A DNA stretch of 64,000 nt from positions 186,001 through 250,000 of the forward strand of contig JAUIAH010000003.1 in assembly GCA_030425385.1 (NCBI GenBank), in the 5' to 3' direction. Below, piece after piece: positions 2,826-39,717 of the stretch; position 1 is the first letter of the stretch, and each line of letters begins with the position of its first letter. Origin of the DNA: Verrucomicrobiia bacterium. Lineage in GTDB: Bacteria; Verrucomicrobiota; Verrucomicrobiia; Verrucomicrobiales; DEV007. The translations under genes were made by a program, and so were the position numbers. Below the pieces are notes generated by a model. It saw nothing but the letters and a program-made list of their open reading frames with translations. It had not been told where the DNA came from and searched no databases.

Positions 2826-5372
2826 TTAGTCCAGTCCTGCAGGAGCGAGGCGAAAGAATCGCTGATCGGCATCGCGCAAATCCTCGGCGGGAATACGCCA
2901 TTGAGTGCCTGTCCTCACCGGACCTGGTGTTGTCCAGCGCTCCCAGTGGACAAGATCTTGGGAGGATTCTACATGCCAAGATCCCTGAAAGGGTAATTGG
3001 TCTGGGAGGGTGAGCATGAGGTCTCCTCGCGTTGTCGCCGAGACGTGCAGATGTTCTCTCCTCGACATGTGGTGACTTGGTAAGTCATCGGACCGCTGCA
3101 GCTGCTGGGTGGCGCCGCTGCCATCATAGTCGAACGAGAGGTCGCCAAGGGAGAAGGACCAGGTCTGTTGACCACTTTGAAAGGACGTTGGGATAGGATG
3201 TGCGGCCCGATTCACCAGATTGAGGACGACCTTGTCTATCGTCTCTTGGAAGCGCACCCGGACGGAACCGGCATCGCTCACGTGCTGGCCTCCGTAGACG
3301 CCACTGATCTGATTGGTGAAATCGCCAGTGAACGTGTTGCCCACGCGAATGAAGGCATTCCCTTCCTGAGAATAAGTGGGTGCCCCTTGAGGGGTACTCC
3401 CGAGAAAGGAGGTGAGTGTGAGGATGTCGAACGAATTGAATCCGTCAACTTCCTTGATGAGAGCATTGATCCCATTGAGTGCGAAGTTGAGGTTGCGGAC
3501 CGGTTGATCAAAAGTGATCGCCAATTGGTACTCTGTCTGATCGCCGATGGCGAGGGGGCTGTCACCTCCCCAGTAGCCCCACAATCCTAACACGATGTCA
3601 TTGGAGCCATTGCTCACCGTTTGCCAGGAGCCAAGAGGCAATGCGAGGGATTGGGGATCGCCCCAGCGATGAATTTCCCATTGGGAATACGAGAACCTAT
3701 CATTGCTCGTGGCAACATGGGTGAGGTCGAAGGTCGCGGTGACGCCGCCCTCGGTGGATCCCGCTTGATAGGTTGCCGGGCCATTGTTGAAGCCCGGCTT
3801 GATCAGCTGTCCTTGCCGAGGTGCCCACACGATTTCCGTCGCTACTCCCGGAAGAAATGATAGATCACCAATGGAGAAGGACCAATTCTGCAGACCTCCC
3901 TGAAACTGGGCCGGTTGCGGATGATCGGCTTCGCAGATGAATGTCAGGACCACTTTATCGAGCGCATCTGGGAAGCGTACCTCGACGGATCCGTCATCGG
4001 TCACATTGGGAAAACCGCCCCCAATCTGAACGGCGAAGTCTCCGGTCAACACGTTGCCCGTTTGGACGAAGCCCGTGCCTGCATCAGTGAACGTGGGCGC
4101 GACAGATCCAGCGGATCCTAACGAGCCGCTAACCGTCATGGTGTCGAAGGCATTGAAGCCGCCACTTAAGAGAGCGTTGATGGCATTCAGTTGGAAGCGC
4201 AGATCACTCACCGGCTGATCGAAGTTCATGGTGAGCCGGTAACTTGTCTGATCACCGATGGCCACAGGGGGAGCACCTGCTTCGCCCGTGGTGCCCCAGT
4301 ATCCCCAGAGGCCTAACACCACATCATTAAAGCCATTGGAAACGAGTTGCCAGGAACCGGGAGGATCCGTCACCAGCCCCGTCGGGTCTCCCCAGCGATC
4401 GATTTCCCACTGCGAATAACTGAACTTGTCGTCCGTCGTTCCCAAGCCCTCGAGGGTGAACTGAACCGTCACTTCGTCATCGTCGGAAGCGGCTTGGAAA
4501 GTTGCCGTGCTCTCGTCATAGCCAGGCTTCGTGAGCGTGCCTCGCTTCGATTCCCAACTGAGGGTGCTGCGGTTCTGAGCCGCAAGCGGTTCGAAGTTGA
4601 GGTCGCCCAAAGAGAAGGACCAGTTCTGCACGGCATCCTGGAAACTTCCCGCCTGAGGATGTTGGGCCTCACAGACGAACGAAAGGACGACGCGATCGAT
4701 GACCTGAGGGAAACTCACCAGGACGGACCCTTCATCGGAAGTACTCGTGATCCCCGTGTCATCGCCGATGGGTGCCGCGAAATCGCCCGTCAAGGTATCG
4801 CCCGAGCGGATGAATCCGTCTCCAGCATTGGCGTAAACGGGTGATGGTTGCCCCACGCCATCAAGAAAGGAGGAGAGCGTGACGCGGTCGAAGGCGTTGT
4901 TTCCGCCGTCCGTCACCAAGGCGTTGATCGCGTTCAGCTGGAACGTTAGGTCCTCGACCGGGCGTTCAAAGGCGATCTCGATTTCATAGGCAGTCTGTGC
5001 GCCAGCCGTCAGGGGAGAGCCCCCATTGCCCCAGTAGCCCCAGAAATCTAGGGACACCGCATTGGCAGCATTGCCTACCGATTGCCACGAGCCCGCTGGC
5101 GAACTCACGACGCCTTCCGGGTCACCCCAGCGATCGATCGACCACTTCGAGTAGGTGAAGAGCCCAGGTGAAGTCGCCACATGCGTCATCTTGAACGTCA
5201 GTTCCACGTCCTCCGCACTCATCACGCGGTAGACTGAGGGCCCATTGGTGAACCCTGCCTTGTCCAGGGAGCCTCGCTTGGGCGTCCACGCAACAGTGTC
5301 CCCCATTGCCGACCACATTCCGCCAGCGAGCGCCAGAACGGCTAGGATCAGGCTGGCAGAGGTTCTCGACAT
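2826..5372 (-). CDS. exported protein with three copies of an unrecognised ~240-residue domain
   Basis: I do not recognise the repeated domain. The start at 5372 gives a clear signal peptide (MSRTSASLILAVLALAGGMWSAMG). Three consecutive modules of about 240 residues follow. Each opens with a W-x-x-(K/R)-(R/Q)-G-x-L-x-K-x-G-(F/Y) block, continues with W-x-(I)-x-RWGDP, then GSWQ, LxxWGYWG, a strongly conserved NA(I)NAL motif, GDF, and closes with QxWSFSLGDL(N/S)F. The alternation of short hydrophobic strands suggests beta-sandwich folds. The last 80 residues form a separate tail with VESSQDLVHWERW and FFRLAP, resembling tails of three other exported proteins here. No catalytic motif is visible, so a structural or adhesive surface role is possible but unproven. 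It is convergent with the sulfatase, 25 bases away, and divergent from the phosphate transporter. Confidence 0.8.
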   Translation of the reverse strand: MSRTSASLILAVLALAGGMWSAMGDTVAWTPKRGSLDKAGFTNGPSVYRVMSAEDVELTFKMTHVATSPGLFTYSKWSIDRWGDPEGVVSSPAGSWQSVGNAANAVSLDFWGYWGNGGSPLTAGAQTAYEIEIAFERPVEDLTFQLNAINALVTDGGNNAFDRVTLSSFLDGVGQPSPVYANAGDGFIRSGDTLTGDFAAPIGDDTGITSTSDEGSVLVSFPQVIDRVVLSFVCEAQHPQAGSFQDAVQNWSFSLGDLNFEPLAAQNRSTLSWESKRGTLTKPGYDESTATFQAASDDDEVTVQFTLEGLGTTDDKFSYSQWEIDRWGDPTGLVTDPPGSWQLVSNGFNDVVLGLWGYWGTTGEAGAPPVAIGDQTSYRLTMNFDQPVSDLRFQLNAINALLSGGFNAFDTMTVSGSLGSAGSVAPTFTDAGTGFVQTGNVLTGDFAVQIGGGFPNVTDDGSVEVRFPDALDKVVLTFICEADHPQPAQFQGGLQNWSFSIGDLSFLPGVATEIVWAPRQGQLIKPGFNNGPATYQAGSTEGGVTATFDLTHVATSNDRFSYSQWEIHRWGDPQSLALPLGSWQTVSNGSNDIVLGLWGYWGGDSPLAIGDQTEYQLAITFDQPVRNLNFALNGINALIKEVDGFNSFDILTLTSFLGSTPQGAPTYSQEGNAFIRVGNTFTGDFTNQISGVYGGQHVSDAGSVRVRFQETIDKVVLNLVNRAAHPIPTSFQSGQQTWSFSLGDLSFDYDGSGATQQLQRSDDLPSHHMSRREHLHVSATTRGDLMLTLPDQLPFQGSWHVESSQDLVHWERWTTPGPVRTGTQWRIPAEDLRDADQRFFRLAPAGLD

Positions 5373-35001: not shown

Positions 35002-36369
35002 GTGGTCCGCGTGTGGTTGCAGCCGGACGGCCCTGGACTATCGTCCGGGGTGAATCCTCTTATTCGGAAAGTGATATTGCTGAGTTGCCTGGCCTGGGGG
35101 GCAGGGGTGCCTTGTTGGGCGGATGCGGACGAGGCGAAGGCGCGAGAGATCTTGAATCGCTTGACGGCGTTCTACCGTGGTCTGGAGGCTTTCGAGGTGG
35201 AGTCAGTGATGACGACGTCCATGAAGAACCCGCAGCTGGTGGAGCCATTGACCCAGGAATTGCGCCAGACCTACAAGGTGAAACGGCCTGGACAGTTTGT
35301 GTTAGAATCCCGTGGGGATGGCATGCTCTTCAGTGCGCCGAATGCCTACTTGGATGATTGGCAGGGCGTTCTTCTCCTGGAGGGACAGGGACGAATCGAA
35401 GCAAGTGGGGTCGCGACCCCAGCAGCCTTCCTGCGCAACCCTGCCTTTGGATTCAATCCCAATGCCGGAGGGAACATTGTGTTTGATCAGAACATCGGGC
35501 TTTCGTTCTTGAACAAGTTGCTGTTCGCCGATGTGGGCCAAGGGTGGGAGCGCGATCTTAAATCGGTGACCCTTGTTGGGGAAAGTGTGATTAATGACGT
35601 GAAGGTGGATCAGTTAGCCCTCACGACAGAGACCCACCAGTTCGGCGAGGCGGCGACGATGGTCCTGAACATCTGGGTGCAGCAAGGGAAAGAACCGTTC
35701 CTCTTGCGATTGAAACCCGATCTCTCGAATCTCTTCTCTCAAGGGGACGGCGCACCAGAGATGGAGGTGGGCATGTTAGGAGAATGGCATTCCTGGAATA
35801 CGAAGCCGAGTTTTAAGGAGGATACCTTCAAAGCGCCAAAGGCGGATGATGAAATGCCGGTGTTTCCAAGCTTTGAGGCGATGATGCAAGCCCAGACGGC
35901 GGCGCAGAATCCGGCCTTGGCACTGACGAGCACGGAAGCGAAGGCGTTCACGTTGAAGGATCTTGACGGAGAGGAATTCCAACTTTCCAAGCATCGCGGC
36001 AAAGAGGTGGTCGTGTTAGCCTTCTGGGGATCTTGGCTGAGCCCCGAGGCTGAGGTGTTGACCGCCCTAGCTTCCATCGAGAAGCAATTGAAAGACGCGC
36101 CGGTCGAGATCGTGGCGGTGAATGTGGGTGAGGAGGAAGCTCGCGTGCGGGCCTATTTGGACGAGAAGAAATTGGGGCTACGCGTGGTGATTGATGCAGA
36201 GCAGAAGGTGGCGCCTCTTTACGAGGTGCGGGCGGTGCCGCAGACCGTGGTGATTGGGAAAGATGGAGAGATCTTCCAGGTCCACATCGGCTCAGATGAG
36301 GCCTTTGAGGAGGAGTTGCTGCGCGAATTGCGTCTCATTCTGGAGGCTCCCGCTGAGAACACACCGTGA
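35002..36369 (+). CDS. LolA-like (DUF2092) protein fused to a cysteine-less thioredoxin-fold domain
   Basis: An exported 455-residue protein. Residues about 45-285 look like the DUF2092/LolA-type lipid-binding half-barrel: ILNRLTAFYRGLEAFEVESVM, then YKVKRPGQFVLESRGDGML. Residues about 310-450 form an AhpC/TSA-thioredoxin fold: FTLKDLDGEEFQLSKHRGKEVVVLAFWGSW, and later VRAVPQTVVIGKDGEI with the cis-proline. Where active relatives have WCxxC this protein reads WGSWLSPEAE, so both redox cysteines are missing near residue 345. GTG 35002 is preceded by AAAGGTGAG at a suitable distance; GTG 35050 would give a shorter signal peptide. It lies 78 bases before two HtrA-type genes on the same strand. 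Role inferred as envelope binding or chaperoning, not disulfide reduction. Confidence 0.75.
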   Translation: MVRVWLQPDGPGLSSGVNPLIRKVILLSCLAWGAGVPCWADADEAKAREILNRLTAFYRGLEAFEVESVMTTSMKNPQLVEPLTQELRQTYKVKRPGQFVLESRGDGMLFSAPNAYLDDWQGVLLLEGQGRIEASGVATPAAFLRNPAFGFNPNAGGNIVFDQNIGLSFLNKLLFADVGQGWERDLKSVTLVGESVINDVKVDQLALTTETHQFGEAATMVLNIWVQQGKEPFLLRLKPDLSNLFSQGDGAPEMEVGMLGEWHSWNTKPSFKEDTFKAPKADDEMPVFPSFEAMMQAQTAAQNPALALTSTEAKAFTLKDLDGEEFQLSKHRGKEVVVLAFWGSWLSPEAEVLTALASIEKQLKDAPVEIVAVNVGEEEARVRAYLDEKKLGLRVVIDAEQKVAPLYEVRAVPQTVVIGKDGEIFQVHIGSDEAFEEELLRELRLILEAPAENTP

Positions 36370-36447: not shown

Positions 36448-37548
36448 ATGAGGACTTTATTCCAATTCCGATTGTGTTGGCTGGGAGTGGCTTGGTGCTT
36501 GGGAGGGCTGTCGTGGGCGCAAGATGTGGTCGCCGAGGTCGAGCGCTCCGAGGCGATTCCGATTGATGAAGAATTGATCGATTTGCCGGAACCCGATCCC
36601 ATTCAGATCTTGCGGGACCGCGAGGCTGCCGTGGAGGCGGTGTTCCAACGCGTCTCCCCAAGTGTCGTCGCGCTGGGGCCGTCAGATCCAAGCATCGATG
36701 GATGGGGAAGTGGTGTCATTGTGAGTGAGGATGGCTTGATTCTCACTGCCGGCCACGTGACGGAGGCGACAGGTGAAGACATCTTTGTCTATTTGGCGGA
36801 TGGACGTCGGTTTCCTGGGAAACGGTTAGGGGCCAACATGAATCGAGATGCTTCCATGGCCAAGATCGTTTCTGATGGTGAGACCTTTCCCTATGTGGAC
36901 GTGGCAGAACCAGACACGGCATCATTGGGTGATTGGGTCGTCGCGATGGGGCACCCAGGGGGCTATGATCCCGAGCGGCCTGCTCCCCTGCGGATCGGGC
37001 GAGTCTTACAGAAGCAAAGTGAGAAATTGCTCGTGACGGATTGCACGCTTTCCGGTGGCGATTCGGGCGGGGCTTTGTTCGATTTGGAGGGGCGTTTGAT
37101 CGGCATCCACTCATCGATTGCCCAGAGTTACTCACATAACATCCATGTGGCCATGGCGGTCTATCACAAGTTCTGGGATCGCATGGAGGCGGGGGAGCAT
37201 TGGGGCAAACTGAAGAATTTGTTCGAGGAGGCCTTGCCTGGGTATGAGTCCCAGGTGGACCGGAGCCAGAATCGTGCTCTGTTAGGGGCGAATCTTGACA
37301 AACGCTCGCGCAATGGCGTCCTCGTGCGGGAAGTGCCCTCCGGGTATCCTGCTGCTGAGGGTGGGATGCGGCCGGGCGATGTCATCGTGGGCTTTGATGG
37401 GCAAGAAGTGAGTGAGTACGTCGAGTTGTTTCCCCTGCTCTCCTCGTTGGATCCTGGTGACCCGGTGGAGATCGTGGTGGATCGAAGGGGAAAGAAAGTG
37501 ACCTTGGAAGTGCGCATGGGGGATCGAGCTGATTTCTTAAAGGAGTAG
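36448..37548 (+). CDS. exported HtrA/DegP-type serine protease with one PDZ domain
   Basis: A periplasmic S1C-family protease of 366 residues. The signal peptide ends near GGLSWAQ. The trypsin fold carries a full catalytic triad: His in GLILTAGHVTEA (about 103), Asp in MNRDASMAKI (about 132) and Ser in LSGGDSGGALFD (about 205). A C-terminal PDZ domain (about 275-360) contains LVREVPSGYPAAEGGMRPGDVIVGFDGQ. The sequence TAATAC at 36435-36440, eight bases before the ATG, could be a -10 box serving a leaderless transcript; no ribosome site is visible. The next gene, a related protein with a broken triad, starts two bases after the stop, so the two are almost certainly co-translated. Confidence 0.9.
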   Translation: MRTLFQFRLCWLGVAWCLGGLSWAQDVVAEVERSEAIPIDEELIDLPEPDPIQILRDREAAVEAVFQRVSPSVVALGPSDPSIDGWGSGVIVSEDGLILTAGHVTEATGEDIFVYLADGRRFPGKRLGANMNRDASMAKIVSDGETFPYVDVAEPDTASLGDWVVAMGHPGGYDPERPAPLRIGRVLQKQSEKLLVTDCTLSGGDSGGALFDLEGRLIGIHSSIAQSYSHNIHVAMAVYHKFWDRMEAGEHWGKLKNLFEEALPGYESQVDRSQNRALLGANLDKRSRNGVLVREVPSGYPAAEGGMRPGDVIVGFDGQEVSEYVELFPLLSSLDPGDPVEIVVDRRGKKVTLEVRMGDRADFLKE

Positions 37549-37550
37549 CC

Positions 37551-38909
37551 ATGAATTCACGAATCATTTGGAAATTAGGTGTGTTGGCGGTGTGCGTCAG
37601 CCCATTGTCAGCGCAGGAGTTCGCGGATGACGAGCGTCGCGGCCGGGATCGTGGATCCATCTACGAACAGGCCATGGGCCGCTACTTCGAGGACCTGGAT
37701 CGGCGACGAGTAAAGGTGCCCTTCGAGAAAGGGCATCGCAGCACATTGTTAGAGTATGCGCCCGTGGTGGAGAAGGCGCGGGCGAGCACGGCCAAGGTCT
37801 ACAAGGGAGATGAGGTGCGTGCTTTGGGAACGGTGGTGGCCAAGGAAGGCTTGATCGTGACCAAGGCGAGCGAGATTGGTGATGATGAGGAGTTGGCGGT
37901 GGAGTTGTTAGGCAAAGATAAGATGGTGGCCGAGCTGGTGGAGGTGAATGAAGAGAATGACCTCGCGCTGCTGTGGGTGCACGATTTCGACCTGACACCG
38001 ATCACCTGGGCACCAGGGAGTTCGTTGCCGGTTGGGAAGATGGTGGCGGCGGTCGGAACACTGAACATGCCGCTGGCCGTGGGGGCGGTGAGCTTGCCGA
38101 TACGGAATCTGTCAGAGGCGAGTAAGGGATTTCTCGGTGTGAGCATGCGTCCAGCGGACGAGGGCACAGGCCTCCTTGTGACCGAAGTTTTGCGGAACTC
38201 TGGAGCCGAGAAGGCAGAGATCGAGCCAGGTGATGTGATCTTGGCTGTCGATGGCAATGCGATGGAGACATCCCCGGATCTCATCAACACCATTGCCCAG
38301 GCAGAGCCAGGGGATGTGGTGCTGCTCCAGATCCTTCGAGAAGGAGAGGAGATGATGGTAGAAGTGACGCTCGGGGATAAAGATTCCGGCTCGGGCTTCC
38401 AAATGCCGCAGCATGAGATGATGGACAATACGGCGCGGATGGGTGGCTTGATGAGCCGCAATCGCTCAGGATACCGCGCGGCCATTCAGACGGATATGCA
38501 GATCCGGCCGAATCATTGTGGAGGGGCGATGGTGAATCTCGATGGGGAAGCCGTGGGCCTCAACATCGCGCGGGCCAGTCGAGTCAAAAGCTACGCCATC
38601 CCATCAGAGGTCGTGCTCGAGTGGTTAGGCGATCCCGATGAACTGGTTGCAGATGTGTTAGAAAAGCGCGTCGCGAATGCCCAGGCCGCGCGGAAAGCGG
38701 CCGAAGAGGTTCTGGAACGCGCGATCGCCACTGAATCCGATGTGACGCGTGTGTTAGAAGAGTTAAAGCAACGTCGAGAAGAGGCGCGTCAGCGCGTGGA
38801 AGTGGTGCCAGCCGAAGTGATCCAGCCAGCAAGTGCCGGTGTGGACGAAGTGGAAGGAGAGCCTAGCGAGCCGGTTACGCTTGAGGATGAGGAAATGCCC
38901 GATGCCTGA
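37551..38909 (+). CDS. HtrA-fold pseudoprotease with an internal PDZ domain
   Basis: An exported 452-residue protein with the S1C fold but no catalytic His or Ser. After a signal peptide (to about LSAQ) the trypsin-like part has LGTVVAKEGLIVTKASEIGD, where the family has LTNNHVV, so His is replaced by Ser; NEENDLALLWV keeps the Asp; and IRPNHCGGAMVNLDGEAVGLN replaces the nucleophile Ser of GNSGGP with Cys (about residue 323). A PDZ domain (KGFLGVSMRPADEGTGLLVTEV to GDVVLLQILREGEE, about 185-285) is inserted between the two halves of the beta-barrel rather than at the end. The C-terminus is a charged helical tail. It likely regulates or delivers substrates to the intact protease encoded two bases upstream. 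It overlaps the next gene by eight bases. Confidence 0.85.
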   Translation: MNSRIIWKLGVLAVCVSPLSAQEFADDERRGRDRGSIYEQAMGRYFEDLDRRRVKVPFEKGHRSTLLEYAPVVEKARASTAKVYKGDEVRALGTVVAKEGLIVTKASEIGDDEELAVELLGKDKMVAELVEVNEENDLALLWVHDFDLTPITWAPGSSLPVGKMVAAVGTLNMPLAVGAVSLPIRNLSEASKGFLGVSMRPADEGTGLLVTEVLRNSGAEKAEIEPGDVILAVDGNAMETSPDLINTIAQAEPGDVVLLQILREGEEMMVEVTLGDKDSGSGFQMPQHEMMDNTARMGGLMSRNRSGYRAAIQTDMQIRPNHCGGAMVNLDGEAVGLNIARASRVKSYAIPSEVVLEWLGDPDELVADVLEKRVANAQAARKAAEEVLERAIATESDVTRVLEELKQRREEARQRVEVVPAEVIQPASAGVDEVEGEPSEPVTLEDEEMPDA

Positions 38910-39717
38910 GAAGATCGCGTTAGAAGATTTCTGTGAGGACATCGTGGGCAAGGCGATGCGTGGTTTGGGAATCTCGGATGATGTCCTGGCCGAGAGCGCG
39001 CAGGTGACGCCTCAAGCCGTGCAGGCGCTGCGGCGAGGGAAGGGAGAGGAAGCTGTCGTGCGTGCAGTGGCTCCATGTCTGAATTTGAATCCTGACAAGC
39101 TCGTTGAGAGTTTCCACGGAAGCTGGTATCCGCAAGTGCCGCCCCTGGAAGGATTTCGCATGGAGAACACCCCGTACCGCGACATGTTCGTTAATGCGTA
39201 TCTGTTATGGGATGCGGAGACTCGGGAGGCAATGCTCGTTGACACCGGAGCCGATGCCAGCGCCCTGATCGCTGAAGCGAACGCACGCGCCCTCACCATA
39301 TCTCAGATCTTTCTGACCCACACCCATCGCGATCACATCATGGATCTCGACCGCGTCAAAGAGGCGTTTCCCAAAGCAATCGTCTACGTGGGAGCGAAGG
39401 AACTCTTTGCAGGCGCGACACCCGTCGAACCGGGGGACCGCTTTCAATGTGGAGGCCTTTCAGTGGAGGCTCGCCTCACCTGGGGCCACGCGGTGGGTGG
39501 GATCACCTATGTGGTGCAGGGGCTCGCGAAACCTTTAGCCATCGTCGGTGACGCCGTGTTCGCGGGCTCGATGGGAGGGGGCATGGTCTCCTATGCGGAT
39601 GCCTTACGTACCAATCGGGAAGCAATTCTCAGTCTTCCCGACGAGACGGTTCTTTGTCCTGGGCACGGTCCATTGACCACCGTGGGAGAAGAGAAGGCGC
39701 ACAATCCGTTCTTCTAG
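38902..39717 (+). CDS. metallo-beta-lactamase-fold hydrolase with an XRE-like N-terminal domain
   Basis: A cytoplasmic protein of 271 residues from the ATG at 38902, which overlaps the preceding stop by eight bases. Residues about 13-70 look like an XRE-type helix-turn-helix (AMRGLGISDDVLAESAQVTPQAVQALRRGKG, then CLNLNPDKL). Residues about 85-270 form a metallo-beta-lactamase fold with the metal ligands of the glyoxalase II group: FLTHTHRDHIMD, a later GHAVGG histidine, GDAVFAGSMGG and CPGHGPLTT. Both metal sites seem intact. Glyoxalase-like relatives cleave thioesters such as S-lactoylglutathione. The fused head might bind DNA or only act as a helical interface. The operon context is envelope proteolysis, which makes the combination unusual. 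Confidence 0.85.
   Translation: MPEKIALEDFCEDIVGKAMRGLGISDDVLAESAQVTPQAVQALRRGKGEEAVVRAVAPCLNLNPDKLVESFHGSWYPQVPPLEGFRMENTPYRDMFVNAYLLWDAETREAMLVDTGADASALIAEANARALTISQIFLTHTHRDHIMDLDRVKEAFPKAIVYVGAKELFAGATPVEPGDRFQCGGLSVEARLTWGHAVGGITYVVQGLAKPLAIVGDAVFAGSMGGGMVSYADALRTNREAILSLPDETVLCPGHGPLTTVGEEKAHNPFF

Follow-up and report, generated by a model that had tools for sequence, protein, structure and literature searches.

A dead HtrA-like protease with a PDZ domain inside its barrel, paired or fused with an intact HtrA-like protease in Verrucomicrobiota and Planctomycetota

Two adjacent HtrA-like genes lie in the window (the whole stretch of 64,000 nucleotides that was analysed). The upstream gene encodes an intact HtrA-like protease, referred to here as the partner, and the downstream gene encodes an HtrA-like protein without a catalytic triad, referred to as the pseudoprotease. 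The genes and their principal features are as follows.

36448-37548, + strand: intact partner HtrA-like protease with one C-terminal PDZ, 366 aa (Trypsin_2, E 9.5e-25; PDZ_2)
36754-36756, + strand: partner catalytic His103 (TAGHV; alignment, family survey)
36847-36849, + strand: partner catalytic Asp134 (NRDAS; alignment, family survey)
37063-37065, + strand: partner catalytic Ser206 (GGDSGG; alignment, family survey)
37282-37512, + strand: partner C-terminal PDZ, residues 279-355 (PF13180)
37539-37545, + strand: AAAGGAG, putative ribosome-binding sequence 5 nt before the pseudoprotease ATG (read from the sequence)
37551-38909, + strand: nested-PDZ HtrA pseudoprotease, 452 aa, ATG start (ORF, Pfam, AlphaFold2, fold match)
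37764-38120, + strand: N-terminal part of the trypsin-like barrel, approximately residues 72-190 (Pfam, AlphaFold2, profile alignment)
37863-37871, + strand: K105-A-S107 motif at the catalytic-His position (KxS with the Asp kept in 146/149 homologues)
37959-37961, + strand: retained Asp137 (ND137LAL; alignment, family survey)
38127-38372, + strand: nested PDZ, residues 193-274 (PF13180, E 3.6e-16)
38511-38525, + strand: NHC323GG at the catalytic-Ser position (family column)
38562-38582, + strand: NIARASR (Arg341, Arg344), 3' of the dead Ser site and near-invariant (both Arg in 145/151)

The partner has the intact triad, the HtrA fold and the C-terminal PDZ of an HtrA/Deg protease. Its AlphaFold2 model had a mean pLDDT of 82.5, and the 50 VIA fold matches listed for that model were HtrA/Deg structures only (Z 25.0 to 23.3). 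The partner stop codon ends at 37548 and the pseudoprotease ATG begins at 37551, so that two bases lie between the genes, and the Shine-Dalgarno-like AAAGGAG sits within the last codons of the partner. Downstream is a gene for an MBL-fold (GloB-like) protein at 38902-39717; it begins, probably at the ATG at 38902, with an 8-nt overlap of the pseudoprotease stop. Given this overlap and an AAAGGAG that is internal to the partner gene, translation of the partner, pseudoprotease and MBL-fold genes is probably coupled. A promoter and terminator scan gave fewer matches than in shuffled sequence. The MBL-fold gene adjoins the pair in three same-genus relatives too. Both the MBL-fold gene and a redoxin-like gene on the other side of the pair are kept in same-genus loci; outside those loci there was one weak match to each.

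The pseudoprotease has the two-barrel trypsin-like fold of the HtrA/Deg family in its predicted structure, lacks the His-Asp-Ser triad of that family and carries its PDZ between the parts of the barrel rather than C-terminal to it. Alignment placed Ser, Asp and Cys at the triad positions (KAS107EI, ND137LAL and NHC323GGA). NHC323GGA stands where HtrA has GNSGG, and KAS107EI stands at the place of the HtrA motif NAH. Pfam recognized Trypsin_2 as two stretches with PDZ_2 (residues 193-274) between them. AlphaFold2, run with the pseudoprotease and eight relatives, gave a mean pLDDT of 73.3 and a pTM of 0.52 overall; most of the barrel and PDZ blocks had a pLDDT of 75 to 93, the ends and the linker were of low confidence, and the C terminus was modelled as a long helix plus low-confidence ends. 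The 50 VIA matches listed for this model were again HtrA/Deg structures only (Z 24.6 to 23.2), with aligned ranges that come from both flanks of the PDZ. DegS without its PDZ (2rce_I, 198 residues) aligned with model residues 34-344 over 180 residues at 2.9 Å (Z 24.1). Both proteins fell below the cut-off of 416.2 bits for TIGR02037 (NCBIfam, Do family serine endopeptidase), the pseudoprotease with 122.5 bits and the partner with 147.2. The N terminus of the pseudoprotease looks by eye like a signal peptide, and from the signal-like N termini we infer a cell-envelope location for the pair.

These results bear out the anatomy that an earlier note, made from the letters of this DNA, had described: a His-to-Ser and a Ser-to-Cys replacement with the Asp kept (KAS107, NHC323 and D137), a PDZ that interrupts the barrel (seen in Pfam, in alignments to solved HtrA chains and in the model), and a position two bases past an intact one-PDZ protease. 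Structure prediction, which the note had proposed as a check, was run on each protein and placed a trypsin fold in both.

The same module recurs. The genome of the window has two further copies (L002 and L003), both with a pseudoprotease reading S/D/M at the triad positions; the partner has two PDZs in L002 and none in L003. The homologue set, drawn from Verrucomicrobiota and Planctomycetota, comprised 154 ORFs, which were reduced to 151 by removal of identical or contained sequences; the loci used (L001-L210) are a subset of all match places. Only ORFs with an A3 domain of 100 bits entered the pseudoprotease count, and one 127-bit row (L068) was left out as below the limit of 140 bits. The 151 ORFs include close relatives, and counts over them are therefore not independent. 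With two more copies in the same genome and 151 non-redundant homologous ORFs, the module is more than chance. A three-row profile matched 40 of 57 relatives at 1e-15, three of which (G008, G018 and G022) were PDZ-only by coordinates. At 1e-20 the phylum sample, in which at most four candidates were scored per genome, gave 37 matching genomes out of 387; except for two (G135 and G279), they belong to the order of the window. In the phylum of a Pirellulaceae genome, 50 of 294 genomes had a match at 1e-35 (six candidates scored per genome). Named records from Verrucomicrobiales, Luteolibacter, Pirellulaceae and Planctomycetaceae MAGs were found with two short patterns, which distant relatives would escape. 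Seven plasmid records, from other genera, were matched by the L014 pseudoprotease, each over part of the query (23 to 29%); the two of them that are annotated are Do-family proteases.

Loss of the triad is a property of the family. The His column could be read in 149 homologues and held Ser in 147, Glu in 2 and His in none. The Asp column held D in 147 and N in 2, and the Lys, His-site and Asp-site residues together read KSD in 146, with LSN, KED and SEN once each. At the nucleophile column the 151 homologues had C (74), M (39), A (13), Q (12), V (7), I (3), S (1), T (1) and L (1). Catalytic Ser was thus absent in 150 of 151, and the sole Ser, in L128, is without a His. The spread of residues in this column removes Cys as a replacement nucleophile for the family. 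On a tree of 148 tips built from the barrel only, the column changed 23 times or more. Lys105 was kept in 147 of 149 homologues, and a 24-row alignment had K105, S107, D137, G162, R185, D228, G324, G332, G336 and R344 as invariant positions. The dN/dS values (NG86) of ten pseudoprotease pairs were 0.012 to 0.183, with dS above 1 in five of them. The family survey that the earlier note had called for thus found both triad losses and the PDZ insertion conserved, and homologues with an intact triad, beside which this copy would be an isolated decay, were absent among the 149 that could be read.

The PDZ was nested in the barrel in all 149 homologues of full span; the other 2 of the 151 rows were cut. 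One nested copy was present in 131, two in 16 and four in 2. When the profile was aligned to DegQ (4a8a), the match to the barrel ended at chain position R164 (GIVSALGR) and resumed at 171, which places the PDZ insertion within loop L3, directly after its Arg. Loop L3 of HtrA3 comprises residues 280-293 and the catalytic Ser is residue 305, i.e., the loop lies 12 to 25 residues before the Ser, according to the available text of PMC4172569. The stretch that follows the PDZ in the pseudoprotease, approximately residues 298-311, lies 12 to 25 residues before Cys323. Planctomycete fused proteins of about 900 to 1150 aa (L174, L176, L171 and similar) have two or four PDZs inside the dead barrel. 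Pfam found four PDZ_2 stretches in the fused L171, two of them before the dead barrel, and five in the fused L174, one of them before it.

Pairing of the pseudoprotease with the partner is well supported. For 101 of the 151 pseudoproteases, the frame directly upstream on the same strand matched the partner profile and contained GDSGG, and another 38 were fused to the partner. Five of the remaining 12 reach the end of their contig (L016, L019, L026, L028 and L040), and seven, from seven genomes, are unlinked (L048, L153, L155, L160, L161, L163 and L166; the upstream sequence covered for L155, L160, L163 and L166 was about 1.1 to 1.4 kb). Each of these seven genomes has one strong partner elsewhere (254 to 341 bits, against no more than 170.5 for the runner-up), with the loop spacing and the [TS]A[AG]HV and GDSGG motifs of partners when judged by eye, and no pseudoprotease was found within their flanks of about 1.5 kb. 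Solitary pseudoproteases as a sign of independence were consequently rejected, since a partner is encoded elsewhere in all seven genomes. Among paired partners the triad read H-D-S in 134 of 139; the other five were cut or frameshifted, four with the His outside the available stretch and L055 by a frameshift. In L055 (G001:C618) the partner gene is split by this apparent frameshift, which may be an assembly error, and the pseudoprotease frame is open.

The converse was also seen. The partner profile was run on 17 chosen genomes, 3 with a pseudoprotease and 14 without a match in the relative and phylum searches. Scores were 222 to 424 bits in the 3 genomes with a pseudoprotease, and at most 168.2 bits in all 14 genomes without one, three of which gave no match at all; some of the genomes were incomplete, down to 81%. 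In genus g19, 13 genomes (2.7 to 3.5 Mb) have two pseudoproteases each and 10 others (2.2 to 2.7 Mb) have none, and the partner-profile search of three of the latter gave no match; pairs in this genus seem to have been lost or gained together.

On the tree, 11 or more changes between the fused and the separate state are needed, a count made without a shuffle control. Natural fusions of the L036 type have 747 aa. L128 (G279), the homologue with the only Ser at the nucleophile column, is a reversed fusion with the pseudoprotease first and the active protease second. Separate partners had 0, 1 or 2 PDZs of their own, and 88 of the 101 had at least one. Planctomycete partners (L014 at 3450-4874; L017 and L018) carry long acidic-rich insertions after the catalytic Asp.

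Barrel distances of partners and pseudoproteases were correlated (r = 0.615, 130 pairs; maximum of 500 permutations, 0.065). When pairs were re-paired within genomes (22 genomes, 49 pairs), the true r of 0.678 compared with a mean of 0.302 and a maximum of 0.593, and none of 2000 re-pairings was as high. Re-pairing within a genome lowers r, and the pseudoprotease is thus tied to its own partner and not merely to its species. The correlation shows duplication and descent as a pair, that is, joint inheritance, not contact. The proposal in the earlier note that a non-proteolytic HtrA partner has been selected for gains support from the family-wide loss of the triad, the dN/dS values, the near-universal pairing or fusion and the matched distances.

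Chains of the pair also differ in two loops, LD and L3, for which the features are as follows.

36928-36999, + strand: partner LD-loop segment G161-G184, lengthened and Arg-bearing (R177, R182; spacing count)
36997-37065, + strand: partner L3 segment, truncated (G184 to Ser206; spacing count)
38103-38105, + strand: pseudoprotease Arg185 at the L3 sensor-Arg position (profile R155 against R164 of DegQ 4a8a, GIVSALGR)

In DegS and DegP, binding of a ligand to the PDZ frees L3, and Arg178 (DegS) or Arg187 (DegP) contacts LD' of the adjacent subunit; the L3 Arg docked on LD' builds the active site together with Thr167 and Gln191 of DegS (Thr176, Ser183 and Gln200 of DegP), as set out in the available parts of PMC11642142. 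Activation of DegS and DegP through PDZ ligand and L3 also appears in the portion of PMC3808539 at hand. Canonical HtrAs, most of them from genomes that lack a pseudoprotease and the others from G043 and the genome of the window, had an LD spacing of 19 and an L3 spacing of 28 to 32 in 21 of 21 pattern-matched cases (16 distinct stretches); 25 GNSGG frames were examined, and three with GMVS (the pattern being GI, GV or GY) and one unrelated frame were left out. In a second canonical set, from genomes with an unlinked pair (n = 13), LD was 19 in 8, 23 in 4 and 27 in 1, and L3 was 29 to 36. Partners had an LD spacing of 23 in 137 of 138, with one of its two Arg in 137 of 138 and the other in all 138, and an L3 spacing of 20 to 23 in 133 of 138 (24 to 31 in the other five). 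The sensor position of partners is without a conserved Arg, and a Gln 10 residues before the Ser was present in 31 of 138. LD length alone is not diagnostic, since an LD of 23 also occurs in canonical-like HtrAs with a long L3 (4 of 13). Pseudoproteases had an LD spacing of 15 to 17 in 138 of 150; their L3 sensor Arg was present in 125 of 151 and absent in 26 (Tyr in 16 of these), the activation-cluster Gln was present in 138 of 151, and a Ser equivalent to Ser183 in 118 of 151. From the aligned motif and the DegS and DegP sequences, we take R164 of DegQ to be R178 of DegS and R187 of DegP. The positions of DegS Tyr162 and Thr167 do not look kept in the pseudoprotease when compared by eye with the DegS sequence. 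As read from these spacings, the loops are complementary: the partner has a long LD and a truncated L3, and the pseudoprotease has a short LD with the sensor Arg mostly kept.

The earlier note had put forward, as a possibility, that the pseudoprotease is an adaptor or an inhibitor; its loop anatomy favours a role as an allosteric activator or sensor subunit. The presence of the pair in two phyla, sometimes fused, points to a protease whose sensing and cutting halves have been separated. The reading we would back, if only just, is a split HtrA in which the dead subunit senses peptides and switches on the partner. The intact gene would supply the cutting subunit, and 37551-38909 a dedicated non-proteolytic HtrA subunit with a PDZ inside L3 of its dead barrel. 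Signalling would fall to the pseudoprotease, in which the L3 Arg is mostly kept, a PDZ has been gained there and LD has been shortened; reception and catalysis would fall to the partner, with its truncated L3 without the sensor Arg and its lengthened LD with two near-invariant Args. The two products would most likely assemble as a hetero-oligomer, the simplest reading of near-obligate pairing, joint inheritance and loop complementarity, and binding of a peptide or an exposed C terminus by the pseudoprotease would then switch the partner on. We infer the physical complex, its activating direction and the ligand alike. The broader proposal is held more tentatively, as one that may well prove too strong: that Verrucomicrobiota and Planctomycetota have a two-component HtrA, an obligate hetero-oligomer with sensing and catalysis split between pseudoenzyme and enzyme. 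On that proposal, trans-subunit allostery in HtrA would here be strictly directional and separately mutable. If the split reading is true, which subunit signals to which would be addressable chain by chain, and there would be a mechanism for a protease class that is widespread in two bacterial phyla. What recommends the system is that the pair recurs, at times as a natural fusion, and that its sensor and catalytic loops appear to have been sorted onto different chains.

An inhibitor, or an adaptor for delivery, would lead one to expect fusion and pairing as well. As a substrate-delivery adaptor or chaperone, the pseudoprotease would bind exposed C termini with its nested PDZ and tether substrate beside the active site of the partner, whose conformation would stay unchanged. 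A PDZ that is present in every uncut copy, and at times multiplied to two or four, fits such a role, as does the constant association with the partner. The 88 of 101 separate partners with their own PDZ could sense for themselves, which makes an adaptor, or a switchable inhibitor, the more possible. We nevertheless consider the adaptor unlikely, because it leaves the insertion of the PDZ at L3, the kept L3 Arg and Gln and the reciprocal loop lengths without explanation.

Less probable still is an inhibitor or antagonist that fills subunit positions and so silences the partner. Fixed pairing and joint inheritance would suit it, and in DegS the unliganded PDZ keeps L3 inactive, as the accessible text of PMC11642142 describes. 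However, the permanent 1:1 fusion in 38 of 151 suits a regulator better than a pure inhibitor, and a switchable form of inhibitor merges with the split HtrA. The cluster of K105, S107, D137, R341 and R344 in the dead site may be a structural lock or a binding site. Its constancy, while the nucleophile position drifts, could also mean a site repurposed for new ligand binding or catalysis independently of the partner, but the near-obligate link to one partner subfamily speaks against this, and with the Cys not conserved there is no shared nucleophile there; we give this account marginally less weight than the inhibitor. Isolated decay of a duplicated HtrA gene would account for an HtrA fold with a lost triad, yet with the signature shared family-wide, low dN/dS and conserved pairing its likelihood is negligible, and the family survey together with the dN/dS range takes chance or decay out of consideration.

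The split-HtrA reading has a precedent of a kind. To our knowledge, the one well-studied case of a pseudoprotease that regulates an HtrA is MamO, and by analogy MamO would be the nearest functional precedent for the pseudoprotease. MamO, of magnetotactic bacteria, is a catalytically dead HtrA-like protein that is needed non-catalytically for proteolysis by MamE, and the likeness lies in a dead HtrA-like protein beside an active one (PMC4794232, in the part available). The differences given in the same part of that paper are that MamO keeps the predicted His and Asp of the triad, with Thr at the nucleophile; that activation needs its TauE domain and its barrel binds metal; and that no physical interaction was detected. 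Neither a nested PDZ nor a fusion to the partner is described for MamO in those passages of PMC4794232. A TauE-like C-terminal transporter domain is absent from the pseudoprotease, in which the only Pfam families above the cut-off were Trypsin_2 and PDZ families.

DegS, DegP and AlgW, in which the PDZ comes after the barrel and the subunits are active, share with the pair the barrel fold, the PDZ and the L3 Arg and Gln activation-cluster positions. Unlike in these proteases, sensor-loop and LD-loop features are here on two separate polypeptides. CtpB (S41, C-terminal processing proteases) is similar in that PDZ occupancy switches an active site, but it is not a pseudoprotease: its family of proteases is a different one, and its Ser-Lys-Gln site is active (PMC3808539). 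A prokaryotic survey counted 42 putative inactive serine protease homologues among 966 proteins from 91 genomes and, in its available text, names neither a nested-PDZ architecture nor a partner (PMC2605481). A literature search aimed at the nested-PDZ pair gave no description of one among the matches listed (titles and abstract starts, with few subscription journals covered).

Two contigs of the genome of the window (L007 and L008; G000:C14 and C69) start with HtrA frames that are identical in size (479 aa) and in coordinates, and a repeat may have interrupted the assembly there. The redoxin-like gene (AhpC-TSA) lies upstream of the protease at 35002-36369 and is without CxxC (FWGSWLSPEAE). 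Its counterparts in L012, L051 and L052 are also without CxxC, and the more distant L101 has WCGPC. Judged from this motif, the redoxin-like gene may encode another dead enzyme in the cluster.
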